NCBI RefSeq assembly: GCF_019075875.1
Contig: NZ_JAHOOZ010000001.1
Coordinates: 3,968,001 to 4,032,000, forward strand
Origin: Novosphingobium sp. G106
Lineage (GTDB): Bacteria; Pseudomonadota; Alphaproteobacteria; Sphingomonadales; Sphingomonadaceae
Reading direction: 5' to 3'
Length of the DNA stretch: 64,000 bases
Below, piece by piece: positions 50,095-55,065 of the stretch (the stretch's first letter is position 1; each line of letters starts with the position of its first letter). The position numbers and the translations under genes are program-made. A model generated the notes under the pieces. That model searched no databases, was not told the DNA's origin, and saw nothing but the letters and a program-made list of their open reading frames with translations.

Positions 50095-50534
50095 GCCCTC
50101 GCCGGTCCTGCATAGCGCAGGTGGACGATCGGATAGGGTCGCCCGTCCGAATCCAGCTCCGACCGCCCGATCCGCACAAAGCCGCGCGCCTCGTAGAACG
50201 GCAGCGCATTGCTCGCCTGCTCATTGGCATCGACCAGCGCCGCGGGCGCCAGCGTCAGCGCATGGGCGATCAGCGCAGAACCGAACCCGCGGCCATGTAC
50301 GGCGGGATCGACGAACAGCGCGTCGATCATGTCACCGTCCATCACCAAGAAGCCGACCGGCAGGTCGGCATCGTCGACGATCCAGAGCGGAGCTTCGGGC
50401 AGGAAGCCCGAGACGATCCCGTCGATCTCCTGCCGGTGTTCGGCGCTGAGGAAACCGTGCGTTGCATCGACCGCCGCGCGCCAGATCGCCAGCGCGCGCG
50501 GAACGTCCGCCGAAGTACCGGGCCGAACCTTCAC
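50091..50534 (-). CDS. GNAT-family N-acetyltransferase
   Basis: A 147-residue GCN5-related acetyltransferase. The acetyl-CoA-binding motif A is [20 protein letters not shown] (about residues 71-90), preceded by [20 protein letters not shown] and followed by [20 protein letters not shown] (motif B). It starts at GTG (50534), overlapping the thrS stop codon by four bases, so it is co-translated with thrS. The acceptor substrate is unknown; small-molecule or ribosomal-protein acetylation are both possible. Confidence 0.86.
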
Positions 50535-52522
50535 CGCAGATCAGGCGGAGTCGCCTCCGCCTTCAGCATGGCGATCGCCTCGTCCAGCGGCATGAAGCGC
50601 TGGCGCTCTTCGCCCAGCGTGCGGATCGCGACGGTGCCTTCCTCGGCCTCGCGCTTGCCGACGACCAGCAGGTGCGGGACCTTGGCGACCGAGTGCTCGC
50701 GCACCTTGTAGTTGATCTTCTCGTTGCGCAGGTCGGTCTCGGCGCGCAGGCCCGCGGCCTTGAGCTTCTCGGCCACTTCGGCGGCATAAGGATCGGCGTC
50801 GGAGACGATCGTCGCCACCACCGCCTGCACCGGCGCCAGCCAGACGGGCAGCTTGCCGGCGAAGTGCTCGATCAGGATGCCGATGAAGCGCTCGTAGGAG
50901 CCGAAGATCGCGCGGTGGAGCATCACCGGGCGGTGCTTCTCGCCGTCCTCGCCGATGTAGTTGGCGTCGAGCCGCTCGGGCAGCATGCGGTCCGACTGGA
51001 TCGTGCCGACCTGCCAGGTGCGGCCGATCGCGTCGGTGAGGTGCCATTCGAGCTTGGGCGCATAGAAGGCGCCTTCGCCCGGCAGCTCTTCCCAGCCATA
51101 TTCGGGCGTGGCGAGGCCCGCCGCGATCACGGCGTCGCGCAGCTCGGCTTCGGCGATGTCCCACTGCTCTTCGGTGCCGATGCGGTTGTCGGGCCGCAGC
51201 GCCAGCTTGATCGCATAGGTGAAGCCGAAGTCCTTGTAGACCCGGTCCGCGAGCGCGCAGAACGTGCGGACTTCATCGACGATCTGGTCCTCGCGGCAGA
51301 ACAGGTGGCCGTCGTCCTGGGTGAACTGGCGCACGCGCATCAGGCCGTGCAGCGCGCCGTGCGGCTCGTTGCGGTGGCAGCAGCCGTTCTCGACGAGGCG
51401 CAGCGGCAGGTCGCGGTAGGACTTGATGCCCTGCTTGAAGATCAGGATGTGCGCCGGGCAGTTCATCGGCTTGAGCGCCATCCACTCGGCGTGGTCCGAG
51501 ACCAGCGGTCCCTCGTCCTCGACATTGGGGATCTCGTCGGGGATGACGAACATGTTCTCGCGGTACTTGCCCCAGTGGCCAGACTTCTCCCACTGACGCG
51601 CGTCCATCACCTGCGGCGTCTTGACCTCGAGGCACTCGGCCTCGGTGATCGCGCGGCGCATGTAGTCTTCGAGCGCGCGGTAGATGACGTAGCCCTTGGG
51701 ATGCCAGAAGACCGAGCCGTGGGCTTCGGCCTGGAGGTGGAACAGGTCCATCTCCTGCCCAAGCTTGCGGTGATCGCGCTTGGCCGCTTCCTCGAGCCGG
51801 AGGAGATGCGCTTCGAGCTGCTTCTTGTTGAGCCAGCCCGTGCCGTAGATGCGGCTCAGCATCGCGTTCTTCTGATCGCCGCGCCAATAGGCGCCCGACA
51901 CGCGCGTCAGCTTGAACGCGGCGGGATCGAGTTTGCCCGTCGAGGGCAGGTGCGGGCCGCGACACATGTCGTACCAGTCCGATCCGCTGTGATAGACGGT
52001 CAGCTCCTCGCCCTGCGGCAGCTCGGCGGCCCATTCGGCCTTGAAGCTCTCGCCCGCGGCCTTCCACTTGGCGATCAGGTCATCGCGCTGCACGACTTCG
52101 CGCACCAGCGGCTTGTTGGCGGCGATGATCCGGCGCATCTCGGCCTCGATCGCCGGCAGGTCTTCGTCGGTGAACGGTCGAGCCGCGGGCGCGAAGTCGT
52201 AGTAGAAGCCATCGTCCGTCGAGGGGCCGAAGGTGATCTGCGTGCCGGGGAACAGCGCCTGTACGGCTTCGGCCAGGACGTGGGCGTAATCGTGCCGCGC
52301 GAGGTCGAGCGCCTCTGCCTCGTCCTTCGCCGTCACCAGCGCCAGCGAGGCATCGCCCGTGAACGGCCGCGACAGGTCGACGAGCTCACCGTCGATCTTC
52401 GCCGCCAGCGCCGCTTTGGCGAGGCCCGGCCCGATCGCCGCGGCGACGTCTGCGGGAGTCGAGCCGGCCGGCATCTCGCGCACGGATCCATCGGGCAGGC
52501 TGATCTTCAGAAGTTCGGTCAT
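50531..52522 (-). CDS. thrS: Threonyl-tRNA synthetase
   Basis: A 663-residue class II threonyl-tRNA synthetase with all standard domains: TGS domain (about residues 1-60, [20 protein letters not shown]), editing domain with [19 protein letters not shown] and [17 protein letters not shown], the catalytic core with [14 protein letters not shown] (zinc Cys), [14 protein letters not shown] and the anticodon-binding domain at the C-terminus. The ATG at 52522 gives the family N-terminus; a GTG two codons upstream is possible. A 25-codon threonine-rich frame and two competing hairpins lie in its 5' leader. It overlaps the downstream GNAT gene. Confidence 0.97.
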
Positions 52523-52579
52523 TCTCACTCTCGATCGAATTTTGCGGCGGTTTGGCAGAAAGCCCGACGCACCGGAAGG

Positions 52580-52642
52580 GGCGGCGTCTGTCAGTCAGGT
52601 TCGAAAAGGAGACGCCGCCTGTCCGAACCCGGACGGCGGCGT
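52580..52642 (-). promoter_or_regulatory. Two mutually exclusive hairpins in the thrS leader (attenuator-like)
   Basis: In transcript order, an antiterminator-like hairpin pairs 52630-52642 with 52612-52625 (13 bp with one bulged base at 52620 and an AACC loop on the plus strand). It competes with a second hairpin pairing 52610-52619 (agacgccgcc) with 52580-52589 (ggcggcgtct), a perfect 10-bp stem with a 20-base loop. They share 52612-52619, so only one can form. A weaker pairing of the leader-peptide region (52656-52660 and 52670-52674) with 52635-52650 supplies the protecting 1:2 element. The second hairpin lacks a T-tract, so intrinsic termination is uncertain; Rho or translational control are alternatives. 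Confidence 0.65.
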
Positions 52643-52651
52643 GCCGGCGCG

Positions 52652-52729
52652 CTAGGCGCCCGCGACGAACCGCCCCCGGTTGCCCGGGGTGGTGGTAGTG
52701 CTCGGCGCAAGGGAGAATACGCGTGCCAT
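52652..52729 (-). CDS. Threonine-rich leader peptide of thrS
   Basis: A 25-codon frame, ATG to TAG, encoding MARVFSLAPSTTTTPGNRGR then FVAGA. Codons 11-14 are ACT ACC ACC ACC, four consecutive threonine codons at plus-strand 52688-52699, the amino acid charged by the downstream enzyme. Its stop codon lies about ten bases before the arm 52635-52642 of the first hairpin, so a ribosome at the stop would cover that arm. It begins only a few bases after the predicted transcription start and has no clear Shine-Dalgarno site, so it may be nearly leaderless. Position, threonine run and downstream structures together support a true leader peptide. Confidence 0.7.
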   Translation of the reverse strand: MARVFSLAPSTTTTPGNRGRFVAGA

Positions 52730-52737
52730 CACGGCCC

Positions 52738-52765
52738 GATTAGCACGGCGGCCGGCGCGGCTCAA
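52738..52765 (-). promoter_or_regulatory. Predicted thrS promoter
   Basis: On the minus strand a -35-like TTGAGC (52760-52765) and a -10-like GCTAAT (52739-52744, or CTAATC shifted by one) are 15-16 bases apart. Transcription would begin near 52731-52733, two to four bases before the leader-peptide ATG. Both hexamers match four of six consensus positions, so this is a moderate prediction. Confidence 0.4.
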
Positions 52766-52920
52766 GCGCGGCTAATATGACAGAAAAATGGCAGAAATCT
52801 GAGGTTTTGCTTCATAACTTAGGGAGAATTTCTCAACCATTGGCGCGTAGCTGGATCGCGTTCGGTGAACATGCCGGCCGCAGCGACGCGAGCCGGCCAA
52901 AAAAGTCGATGAGGTCGTTA

Positions 52921-55065
52921 ATGCAGTGGTTGACGGGGGCGGGCCTCAAGGCCGGCCTAGGGGCTATTTTCGGATCGCTGGAAAAGCGGCTGATCGGGGC
53001 GTTGCTGCTTATCGTCGCCTGTACCGGCGCGCTGCAGGTGATCTCGCAGGATCGCGCAATCAAGCTGCGCGTGGAGAGCGAGACGCTGCGCGCCGCGGCA
53101 ACTAATACCGAGCATGCCGAGCAGCTGGTCAAATCGATCTCCCAGTTCCGCCTGGCGACTCATCTCTATCTGTCGCCCGAACCCGGCGTCGATGCGAGCG
53201 AGTCCGACGACGGCGAGCTGACCGACACTGCCATCCGCATCGGCGAACAGATCAATGCGCTGCGCGCTACTGGCATGGAGCTCTATGGCCTGACCCAGGA
53301 CAACGCGGCGCTCAACGACATCGACCAGCATGTCGCCACGATCATCGACGTCCATGGCAATCCCGCCTCGGGCCGCGCCGAGCGCGCCGCGATCGACGAT
53401 CGCAATGCGCGGATGGCCGCGCTCGCCGCGGCGATCGAGGCCAAGGCCAGCGCCGACCGCGACGGCGCATACGACCAGCTCAGCCGGTCGAGCTCGAACT
53501 GGCAGTGGCTGGTGATCGGGACCGGTGCGGTGACGATCGGTTTCGCGCTGCTGATCCTGTTCGACCTGCTGTTCAACATCCTCCCCGCGCTGCGCCGCAT
53601 GCATGTTGCCTTGCGCCGGCTGGCGGCGGGCGATCTCGACATCGAGGTCGGCGACTTCCGCCTGCGCGAATTGAAAGCGCTGTCAGGCTCGCTCGAAACC
53701 TTCCGGCGCAATGCCCAGGCCGTGCAGAATCTGGCCTTCACCGATCCCTCGACCGGACTGCCCAATCGCCGCGCCTTCGTCGACCGGACCGGCGAACGGC
53801 TGGCCGGCGCGAACGGCCAGACCTTCCTGGTGATGCTGGCCGACATCGACCGCTTCAAGCATGTCAACGACGACTACGGCCACGCCGTGGGCGACCAGCT
53901 CGTCAAGCTGATCGGCGAACGCATGAAGCATGAACTCGGCCCGGACGCGATCATCGCGCGTGTCGGCGGCGACGAATTCGCCCTCTGCGTCGCGCTGCCC
54001 GAAGCGGCCGCCGCGCCGACGCTGGGCACCAACCTGATCGGCGCCATGCGCGCGCCGTTCGATCTCGGCGACTACAACGTCGCGGTCAGCATTTCGCTGG
54101 GCCTCGTCGAAGCCAAAGGCATCGAAGCGGCCACGGGCGACGACGAAGCCAGCGATCGTGAGGCCGAGGTCAACGCGCTGATCAACAAGGCCGATCTCGC
54201 GCTCTACGCTTCGAAGAACGGCGGCCGGAACCGCGCGACGCGCTTCACCACCGACCTCGCCGAGGAGCGCGAGCTCAGCCGCGCGCTCGAACGCGACCTC
54301 GCGCTCGGGCTCGACGACGGCCAGCTGCGCATGGTCTATCAGCCGATCCACCCGTTCCAGGGGGCCGAGAACGAGGTCGAGGCGCTGGTCCGCTGGAACC
54401 ACCCGCTGCTCGGCGAGATCAGCCCCTCGCGCTTCATTCCCGCCGCCGAGCGCAGCGGCCTGATGGTCCAGCTCGGCTACTGGATCGTCCAGCGCGCCCT
54501 GACCGACCTGGCGCGCTGGCCCGGGTTGTCGATGAGCATCAACCTCTCACCGCTGCAGCTGGCGCAGGAGGGCTTCGTCGGCTTCCTGATGGATTGCTGC
54601 CGCAAGCAGGGCATCACGCCGCAGCGCGTGATCCTCGAAGTCACCGAATCGCTGTCGATCGAGCGCAACACGCGCGCGCTGATGACGCTGAACCTGCTGC
54701 GCAACGCCGGTTTCCGCATCGCGCTCGACGATTTCGGCACCGGCTATTCGTCGCTCTGCATGATGAAGACCTTCAAGTTCGACCGGCTGAAGCTCGACCG
54801 CAGCCTGATCACCGATCTCGACAAGGACCCGACCTCGCAGGCGGTGTTCGACGCGGCGGTGACCATGGCGCTGCGCATCGGCGCCGAAGTGGTGGCCGAG
54901 GGCATCAGCGAGGAAGACCTGGTCAGCCCCGTGCGCAGCGCCGGTTGCACCCACGTCCAGGGCTATCACTACAGCCGCCCGATCGAGGCGGATGCGGTGC
55001 AGGGCTACTACGAGGGATCGCCGCAGCTCGAGGGCAAGCCGGACGCGGGTCGCAAGGTGGCCTGA
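52921..55065 (+). CDS. Bifunctional-type diguanylate cyclase/phosphodiesterase (GGDEF-EAL)
   Basis: A 714-residue inner-membrane protein that would make and/or degrade cyclic di-GMP. A helix (about residues 18-40), a periplasmic helical sensor region with no recognised domain, a second helix (about 195-220) and a HAMP region (with ALRRLAAGDLDIEVGDF) lead to a GGDEF domain with ARVGGDEFALC (GGDEF at about 349) and an EAL domain with EVEALVRWNHPLLGE (about 484), then DDFGTGYSSLCMMKTFKFD. Both active-site motifs are intact; the allosteric RxxD site is replaced (LGPD). The start at 52921 is chosen for a GAGGT site six bases upstream; upstream in-frame ATGs overlap the divergent thrS promoter. Confidence 0.92.
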   Translation: MQWLTGAGLKAGLGAIFGSLEKRLIGALLLIVACTGALQVISQDRAIKLRVESETLRAAATNTEHAEQLVKSISQFRLATHLYLSPEPGVDASESDDGELTDTAIRIGEQINALRATGMELYGLTQDNAALNDIDQHVATIIDVHGNPASGRAERAAIDDRNARMAALAAAIEAKASADRDGAYDQLSRSSSNWQWLVIGTGAVTIGFALLILFDLLFNILPALRRMHVALRRLAAGDLDIEVGDFRLRELKALSGSLETFRRNAQAVQNLAFTDPSTGLPNRRAFVDRTGERLAGANGQTFLVMLADIDRFKHVNDDYGHAVGDQLVKLIGERMKHELGPDAIIARVGGDEFALCVALPEAAAAPTLGTNLIGAMRAPFDLGDYNVAVSISLGLVEAKGIEAATGDDEASDREAEVNALINKADLALYASKNGGRNRATRFTTDLAEERELSRALERDLALGLDDGQLRMVYQPIHPFQGAENEVEALVRWNHPLLGEISPSRFIPAAERSGLMVQLGYWIVQRALTDLARWPGLSMSINLSPLQLAQEGFVGFLMDCCRKQGITPQRVILEVTESLSIERNTRALMTLNLLRNAGFRIALDDFGTGYSSLCMMKTFKFDRLKLDRSLITDLDKDPTSQAVFDAAVTMALRIGAEVVAEGISEEDLVSPVRSAGCTHVQGYHYSRPIEADAVQGYYEGSPQLEGKPDAGRKVA

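Follow-up and report, generated by a model that had tools for sequence, protein, structure and literature searches.

A threonine-codon leader with a predicted pseudoknot as a very probable tRNA-Thr-sensing attenuator of thrS in sphingomonads

Introduction

Is the threonyl-tRNA synthetase gene thrS of Novosphingobium sp. G106 controlled by a ribosome that reads threonine codons in a short leader, and if so, which structure of the leader RNA goes along with expression of the gene? The question arises from a 64,000-nucleotide stretch of this genome, referred to here as the window, for which a prediction made from the sequence had proposed a short threonine-rich frame and two competing hairpins upstream of thrS as a candidate attenuator.

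E. coli thrS is under translational autocontrol by ThrRS, which acts on an operator and is not known to involve a leader peptide, and thrS of Firmicutes is under T-box control, in which the tRNA is bound directly and no leader ORF is known to take part. With the operator, the element described here has in common that the same gene would be controlled from its 5' leader, and with the T-box that charging of tRNA-Thr would be sensed. Threonine codons in a leader peptide are familiar from the attenuator of the E. coli thr operon, which senses Thr and Ile.

Leader codons for the amino acid of the controlled synthetase itself are described for pheST-type attenuation in gamma-proteobacteria and for the trpS and leuS attenuators of Streptomyces, all of which are presented as classical attenuators in the accessible part of PMC1262725, leuS with a terminator and poly-U. 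The same part describes the LEU element upstream of leuA in Actinobacteria, featuring a codon-run leader, a pseudoknot and an alternative hairpin, with the codon run pairing with the ribosome-binding site. A thrS leader peptide in alphaproteobacteria was not found described in the literature searched, including the accessible parts of PMC2965389, PMC4833913 and PMC1183508, and an earlier prediction of one is possible. If our reading is true, an essential tRNA synthetase of sphingomonads is regulated through the place that a ribosome has reached in a leader peptide, a kind of control that is known for pheST and was not found for thrS in the accessible literature; new in the thrS element would be the pseudoknot layer and an output that does without a proper U-tract. 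As the element was found once in each carrier genome and some of the named carriers are cultured species, each helix could be broken and restored in a reporter.

Results and Discussion

The gene and its leader lie on the minus strand, and the following features of the locus were annotated, the ATG of thrS being located at 52522.

50534..52522, minus strand: thrS, threonyl-tRNA synthetase, 663 aa (TIGR00418 at 639.8 bits with a cut-off of 383.65; four Pfam domains of the enzyme)
52523..52532, minus strand: putative thrS ribosome-binding region GAGAGTGAGA, judged by sequence only
52652..52729, minus strand: leader ORF MARVFSLAPSTTTTPGNRGRFVAGA*, 25 codons plus stop, from ORF reading, with relatives alike
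52688..52699, minus strand: control codons ACT ACC ACC ACC (Thr x4)
52739..52744, minus strand: putative -10 element GCTAAT, 9 nt before the leader ATG (CTA/TTA conserved across leaders)
52760..52765, minus strand: putative -35 element TTGAGC

The frame with four consecutive threonine codons that had been proposed upstream of thrS is thus present. A divergent gene encoding GGDEF and EAL domains occupies 52777–55065 on the plus strand, its start being 47 nt upstream of that of the leader ORF, and the putative leader promoter sits between the two. An Rfam search of positions 51500–54000 returned nothing above threshold and a single sub-threshold match to a family other than the T-box, and no T-box covariance-model match was obtained in the same interval.

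For comparison, thrS loci were collected from 61 genomes (30 as loci), from 80 named records (the best 80 of 588) and from the 249 genomes that make up the window's family (30 as loci, plus 100 further regions, some of which come from the set of 61 genomes), the family being Sphingomonadaceae in a wide sense as judged by the named records among the relatives. A short ORF with at least four Thr in eight residues that ends 100–215 nt before thrS was found in 90 of the 238 upstream regions parsed, a set that takes in duplicates and non-family loci; counting family loci alone, a Thr leader is present in 89 of 200. Statistics over 77 sequences omit eight of 85 distinct aligned leaders as aberrant or near-duplicate (L144, L198, L057, L112, L155, L133, L067 and L066), and statistics over 63 sequences use an alignment whose rows were chosen from 81 at less than 80 % identity, with L155, L133, L067 and L066 readmitted. 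Three candidates, L144, L117 and L122, were rejected as leaders, each ending in the tail of an apparent upstream gene.

Alignment of these upstream regions, which had been suggested as a check, showed the threonine run to be conserved, the A and C of its last four codons being kept in 59–62 of the 63 sequences. The third bases behave differently along the run: for the last four Thr codons, the commonest third base occurs in 29, 40, 48 and 60 of the 63 sequences, respectively, and the fourth codon, alone in having a fixed third base, falls within the small hairpin P0 introduced below. ACT furthermore accounts for 136 of 587 Thr codons in the leaders, compared to 27 of 590 in the thrS stretches examined. 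The free third bases of three codons, the fixed AC and the usage of ACT therefore argue for selection on threonine codons and not on the RNA alone, and the ORF is presumably translated.

The leader ATG itself is accompanied by a conserved promoter-like signature. A CTA or TTA triplet is found 9–16 nt before the ATG in 75 of the 78 leaders having an ATG and before 119 of 1861 control ATGs, a count that allowed leaders the most favourable among several in-frame ATGs and used each control ATG once; a TTG/TGA -35-like motif accompanies 72 of the 75 leaders that have the -10-like element. A generic sigma-70 scanner found no promoter in the window. As the -10-like element is conserved at the leader ATG, the leader ORF probably lies at the extreme 5' end of the mRNA, with transcription predicted to start at or a few bases from the ATG and the ORF to be read from a leaderless mRNA. 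It is worth mentioning that a -10-like element directly at the ATG of thrS was observed in 29 of 111 family loci without a Thr leader (among them L008, L017, L024 and L113), versus 2 of 89 with one, which suggests a leaderless thrS mRNA in these loci and loss or gain of the leader as a whole.

Between the leader ORF and thrS, the RNA offers several alternative helices, whose segments are listed in 5' to 3' order of the transcript.

52674..52689, minus strand: P0, small hairpin CCCCGG/CCGGGG right behind the Thr run
52655..52679, minus strand: region 1, leader-encoded arm of helix 1:2, proposed anti-attenuator
52629..52650, minus strand: region 2, partner of region 1 (1:2) or of the start of region 3 (hairpin 1), from covariation
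52612..52642, minus strand: hairpin 1 (2:3), 13 bp, -25.3 kcal/mol, followed by UCUCCUUUUC, proposed OFF hairpin, from covariation
52622..52630, minus strand: X GGGUUCGGA, loop and 3' arm of hairpin 1, partner of X' (best of 1830 segment pairs)
52610..52619, minus strand: Y GGCGGCGUCU, 5' arm of hairpin 2, from sequence and pair counts
52597..52605, minus strand: X' UUCGAACCU, within the loop of hairpin 2, from covariation with X
52580..52589, minus strand: Y' AGACGCCGCC, 3' arm of hairpin 2
52545..52578, minus strand: P5, conserved hairpin whose loop contains UGCCA, just before the thrS ribosome-binding region

Both hairpins of the original prediction were recovered. Hairpin 1 consists of ACGCCGCCGUCCG and CGGACaGGCGGCGU with one bulged A, and its 5' arm begins 9 nt past the stop codon, in line with the gap of about ten bases that had been stated; the perfect 10-bp hairpin 2 (GGCGGCGUCU with AGACGCCGCC, 52580–52619) has the eight nucleotides GGCGGCGU in common with it, as claimed. 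P0 is protector-like and cannot coexist with the 5' part of helix 1:2. The spacer between the last Thr codon and region 1 measures 13 nt in 67 of 77 sequences, and regions 1 and 2 of the window fold together at -34 kcal/mol.

Folding the leader had been proposed as a check, and here the energy and the comparison went separate ways. The leader folds no better than its shuffles (z -1.17), an unremarkable energy that we therefore do not count as evidence, and we relied instead on the comparison across relatives, which supports the structures. In an own-versus-swapped test, in which the pairing energy of a sequence's own arms is compared with that of arms exchanged between sequences (n=77 leaders), z values of -14.0 for X:X', -8.3 for 1:2, -6.9 for Y:Y', -6.7 for the apical part of 2:3, -5.7 for P5 and -4.6 for P0 were obtained, with four control rows between -1.1 and +0.8. 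A helix 4:5, formed by region 4 and the CGGYG behind it, was rejected at z -0.1. Scanning 1830 segment pairs without prior choice, X:X' filled the top four places (t -9.4 to -5.8), and the opposite tail reached +5.2, beyond which 1:2 (-4.2), Y:Y' (-4.0) and 2:3 (-3.7) did not go.

The covariation that had been called for in both stems was found, with two-sided changes at four of seven pairs in 2:3 and at four of six in Y:Y'. Helices 1:2, which shows them at seven of nine pairs, and X:X', neither of which was part of the original prediction, are also backed by compensatory changes in the alignment. Taken together, 15 of 21 pairs of 1:2, X:X' and Y:Y' change on both sides among the 63 sequences, a count matched by none of 500 shuffles and dropping to 7–10 when the partner is slid along; one of the nine 1:2 pairs (columns 44/78) was a poor choice, being unpaired in 50 of 63. 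The count for hairpin 1 was equalled by 27 of 500 shuffles and its covariation score by none of 500. These shuffle statistics are inflated by the relatedness of the sequences, which the shuffles leave in, and they were therefore weighed together with the slid controls and the 1830-pair scan.

X:X' (GUUCGGG/CCCGAAC) is the strongest-supported helix of the element and comprises 9 bp with two G-U pairs in the window. It is mutually exclusive with hairpin 1. Along the transcript, X is followed by Y, X' and Y' in this order, so X:X' and Y:Y' cross and would together make an H-type pseudoknot, a geometry that the commonest loop lengths of 4–6, 3–5 and 10–15 nt suit. We consider it likely that X:X' and Y:Y' form at once.

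A covariance model of the approximately 168-nt element, with the window itself as one row, was used to follow its distribution. In its own 7.2-Mb genome the model finds the element once (E 2e-18, the window being a model row) and no further copy, the next match having an E-value of 3.9. Among the 249 family genomes, it detected one copy each in 95, which represent 38 of the 91 genera. Rows of the model come from 36 of these carriers, one of them being the genome of the window, and the other 59 supplied none. A class-wide search matched 3 of 289 genomes, all three from the window's family, under stricter filters that may lose weak matches. The element stands upstream of thrS in 94 of the 95 genomes, the remaining one being a contig break, and its end lies 7–50 nt from thrS in 88 of 95 and 543–567 nt, with an extra gene between, in six.

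The extra gene encodes a protein of 168 aa (MRYYIDTEFNG...HNALADAQAL) and occurs in six genomes of two genera (L303 in G066, L304 in G115, and G155, G213, G260 and G296). The protein has no Pfam or NCBIfam match and shows, by eye, what we take to be exonuclease-like motifs. X:X' and a changed Y:Y' are retained in L303 and L304, the inserted gene beginning 10–12 nt past Y'.

A second alphaproteobacterial lineage carries a Thr leader of its own before thrS. In seven of 30 loci from L108 and its relatives (L240–L245 and L268, where L240 is the L108 locus itself, L108:2717-2836, titled Rhodospirillaceae bacterium bin65), this leader ends in GGAGGGCCG-stop or similar, and the segment behind the Thr codons base-pairs with CCCUCC, which makes up the 5' arm of a hairpin that is followed by UUUUUU.

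One could ask whether the element is a structured mRNA leader with another job, such as protein binding or stability, in which the Thr run is a by-product of the RNA sequence. The strong constraint at the RNA level is what such a role would produce, but the third positions vary in three of the last four Thr codons while AC is fixed, the -10-like element is conserved at the leader ATG, the element precedes thrS in 94 of 95 genomes, and a separate Thr leader precedes thrS in another lineage, which makes this explanation very improbable indeed. That a Thr-codon leader controls thrS by means of mutually exclusive helices, as originally proposed, is supported by the Thr runs, the covariation and the proximity to thrS, and we hold it to be very probable that the thrS leader is an attenuator sensing Thr-tRNA.

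Which of the structures is ON depends on how the ribosome divides them. Since the partner of region 1 is the 5' arm of hairpin 1, stalling should block hairpin 1, and a ribosome that reaches the stop codon should permit it; given the spacer of 13 nt behind the last Thr codon, region 1 should stay available for 1:2 as long as a ribosome sits in the run. A ribosome would load at once onto a transcript beginning at or adjoining the AUG of the short ORF. With charged tRNA-Thr scarce, it would wait in the Thr run and hold P0 open; region 1 would then pair with region 2, hairpin 1 would be blocked, and X and Y would be left free to form the pseudoknot with X' and Y', turning thrS ON. With charged tRNA-Thr plentiful, the ribosome would reach the stop codon and cover region 1, hairpin 1 would form and capture X, and the C-rich stretch from X' to Y' would be bared, switching thrS to OFF. 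Premature termination, assisted by Rho or pausing and independent of a proper U-tract, would be the likeliest means. As X' and Y' are transcribed later than hairpin 1, the decision must come later than in a textbook attenuator.

Masked folding provides a partial test of this switch, since the folding program handles no pseudoknots. Averaged over the 77 sequences, a mask that stops 6 nt short of the end of the Thr run gave 9.8 expected pairs for 1:2 and 3.9 for 2:3, and a ribosome at the stop codon gave 0.5 and 6.9, respectively. The outcome varies with the reach of the mask, while the make-up and position of region 1 are those of an antiterminator arm. With the mask extended to 10 nt beyond the last Thr codon, 2:3 was higher at the stop codon in 25 sequences and lower in 26, Y:Y' was higher in 23 and lower in 14, which speaks against hairpin 1 as the OFF structure, and X:X' was higher in 6 and lower in 14, which speaks for it. 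E. coli leuL, folded as a second control, showed protector and terminator and no antiterminator, and is therefore silent on polarity.

The original prediction had assigned the opposite polarity, in which stalling on Thr codons favours hairpin 1 and expression of thrS. Under this polarity, hairpin 1 would keep hairpin 2 from forming, and hairpin 2, or the pseudoknot that X:X' would add to it, would represent the OFF state through Rho or a block of translation. The extended mask agrees with this assignment in the window itself, where it yields 10.9 expected pairs for hairpin 1 and 2.2 for Y:Y', as compared to 2.65 and 9.9 with the stop codon masked; the Y:Y' counts above lean the same way, and in the two genomes in which Y' lies 10–12 nt before the start codon of the inserted gene, a pseudoknot could block ribosomes there. 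Over the 77 sequences, however, 2:3 has no preferred direction, region 1 keeps its distance of 13 nt from the last Thr codon in 67 of 77, so that stalling should leave 1:2 free, and the analogues with a U-tract, thrL and the second lineage, set the segment behind the Thr codons against the first downstream hairpin. We thus regard the originally assigned polarity as unlikely and probably wrong.

In the second lineage, polarity is fixed by the U-tract terminator, as stalling must there allow the antiterminator. The terminator-like hairpin of L108 was left unflagged by the terminator scanner because, as we take it, its stem has a C-C mismatch, and the bulge of hairpin 1 would act likewise. Mapped from the second lineage and thrL, region 1 is probably the antiterminator arm and hairpin 1 the OFF hairpin. 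Granted a Thr-tRNA-sensing attenuator, these analogies make it quite likely that hairpin 1 is OFF and that 1:2 with the pseudoknot is ON. The joint statement, that a leader-peptide attenuator senses tRNA-Thr charging and controls thrS with this very polarity, appears reasonably probable to us, our confidence being the product of that in the attenuator and that in the polarity given an attenuator.

Having named hairpin 1 as the probable OFF structure, we turned to the output step. The lack of a T-tract after hairpin 2 that had been remarked upon was confirmed, the 8 nt behind it in the window containing 2 U. On average over the 77 sequences, 8 nt contain 2.0 U past the apex of 2:3, 2.8 past its base, 2.7 past Y' and 0.7 past P5, and at least 5 U occur in 7 of 77 past the base of 2:3 (the window included), in 1 of 77 past Y' and in none past P5. 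No intrinsic terminator before thrS was reported by the scanner in the window, and a proper U-tract is not conserved across the 77 sequences. The window's hairpin 1 has UCUCCUUU and then UC behind it, so it might terminate weakly unaided, though this tail is not conserved. The stretch bared in the OFF state has an average content of 0.42 C and 0.18 G; a strong rut signature in the window was rejected, its C-over-G lying no higher than the top 13 %.

Termination assisted by Rho or by pausing is our first choice for the output, with translation as the main rival. According to the latter, the leader would act mainly on translation of thrS, in either polarity, with the pseudoknot or P5 governing ribosome access, P5 possibly being bound by ThrRS in the way that the E. 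coli enzyme binds its own mRNA. The lack of a proper U-tract is in keeping with such a role, and so is the conservation of P5 beside the thrS start (z -5.7), whose loop contains UGCCA with each base kept in 57–61 of 63 sequences, and which has one exact pattern match in its own genome. A P5-like hairpin (UGUGCCA or UCUGCCA) also precedes thrS in 20 of 111 loci without a Thr leader, by a loose and uncontrolled motif (including L016, L020, L025, L159 and L222, with L017, L189, L191 and L197 evidently due to chance). Yet the accessibility of the thrS ribosome-binding region is unchanged between ribosome states (mean difference 0.002), and no upstream segment covaries convincingly with it: leader pairing with this region was rejected, since the best t of -3.2 in 1806 tests faces an opposite extreme of +4.6. 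Among the exploratory own-versus-swapped pairs, region 3 reached z -2.9 and region 4 +2.7 with the ribosome-binding region, others lying between -0.1 and +1.8. Mimicry of the tRNA-Thr anticodon arm beside the ribosome-binding site, as in an E. coli-type thrS operator, appears not to be kept: the P5 hairpin stands at this place, but the Thr anticodon bases are not kept in its loop, the anticodon-like G before U being present in 47 of 63. Control mainly at translation is rather improbable on this balance. The preferred mechanism in its full detail, in which the ribosome on an ORF of a leaderless mRNA picks between the hairpin and an ON pseudoknot that hides a Rho-loading site, without a proper terminator, is put forward tentatively, as a possibility with less than even prospects. 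The position of Y' 10–12 nt ahead of the inserted gene, for which any model has to account, is at least equally compatible with a translational output.

Compared to a classical attenuator, the thrS element has the same Thr-rich short leader ORF and mutually exclusive, compensatorily conserved helices, but lacks a conserved intrinsic terminator, which the second lineage possesses. It is like E. coli thrL in its Thr-codon leader and in the segment between control codons and stop, which serves as antiterminator arm there; unlike the thrS element, thrL controls biosynthesis genes, with thrA next, and has a U-tract terminator, and we know of no pseudoknot in it.

From the pheST, trpS and leuS attenuators, as far as the accessible part of PMC1262725 describes them, the element differs in having no proper U-tract and in the additional X:X'. 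The closest parallel is the LEU element of the same part, since a codon-run leader followed by crossing helices, here the predicted X:X' and Y:Y', is found in both, whereas gene and phylum differ. A LEU-type base stem between codon run and ribosome-binding site obtained z +0.8 in our leaders, and none was among the best 20 pairs. In two further alphaproteobacterial loci, L248 and L296, Thr-rich leaders were observed before thrS, with GC-rich hairpins past the stop codon.
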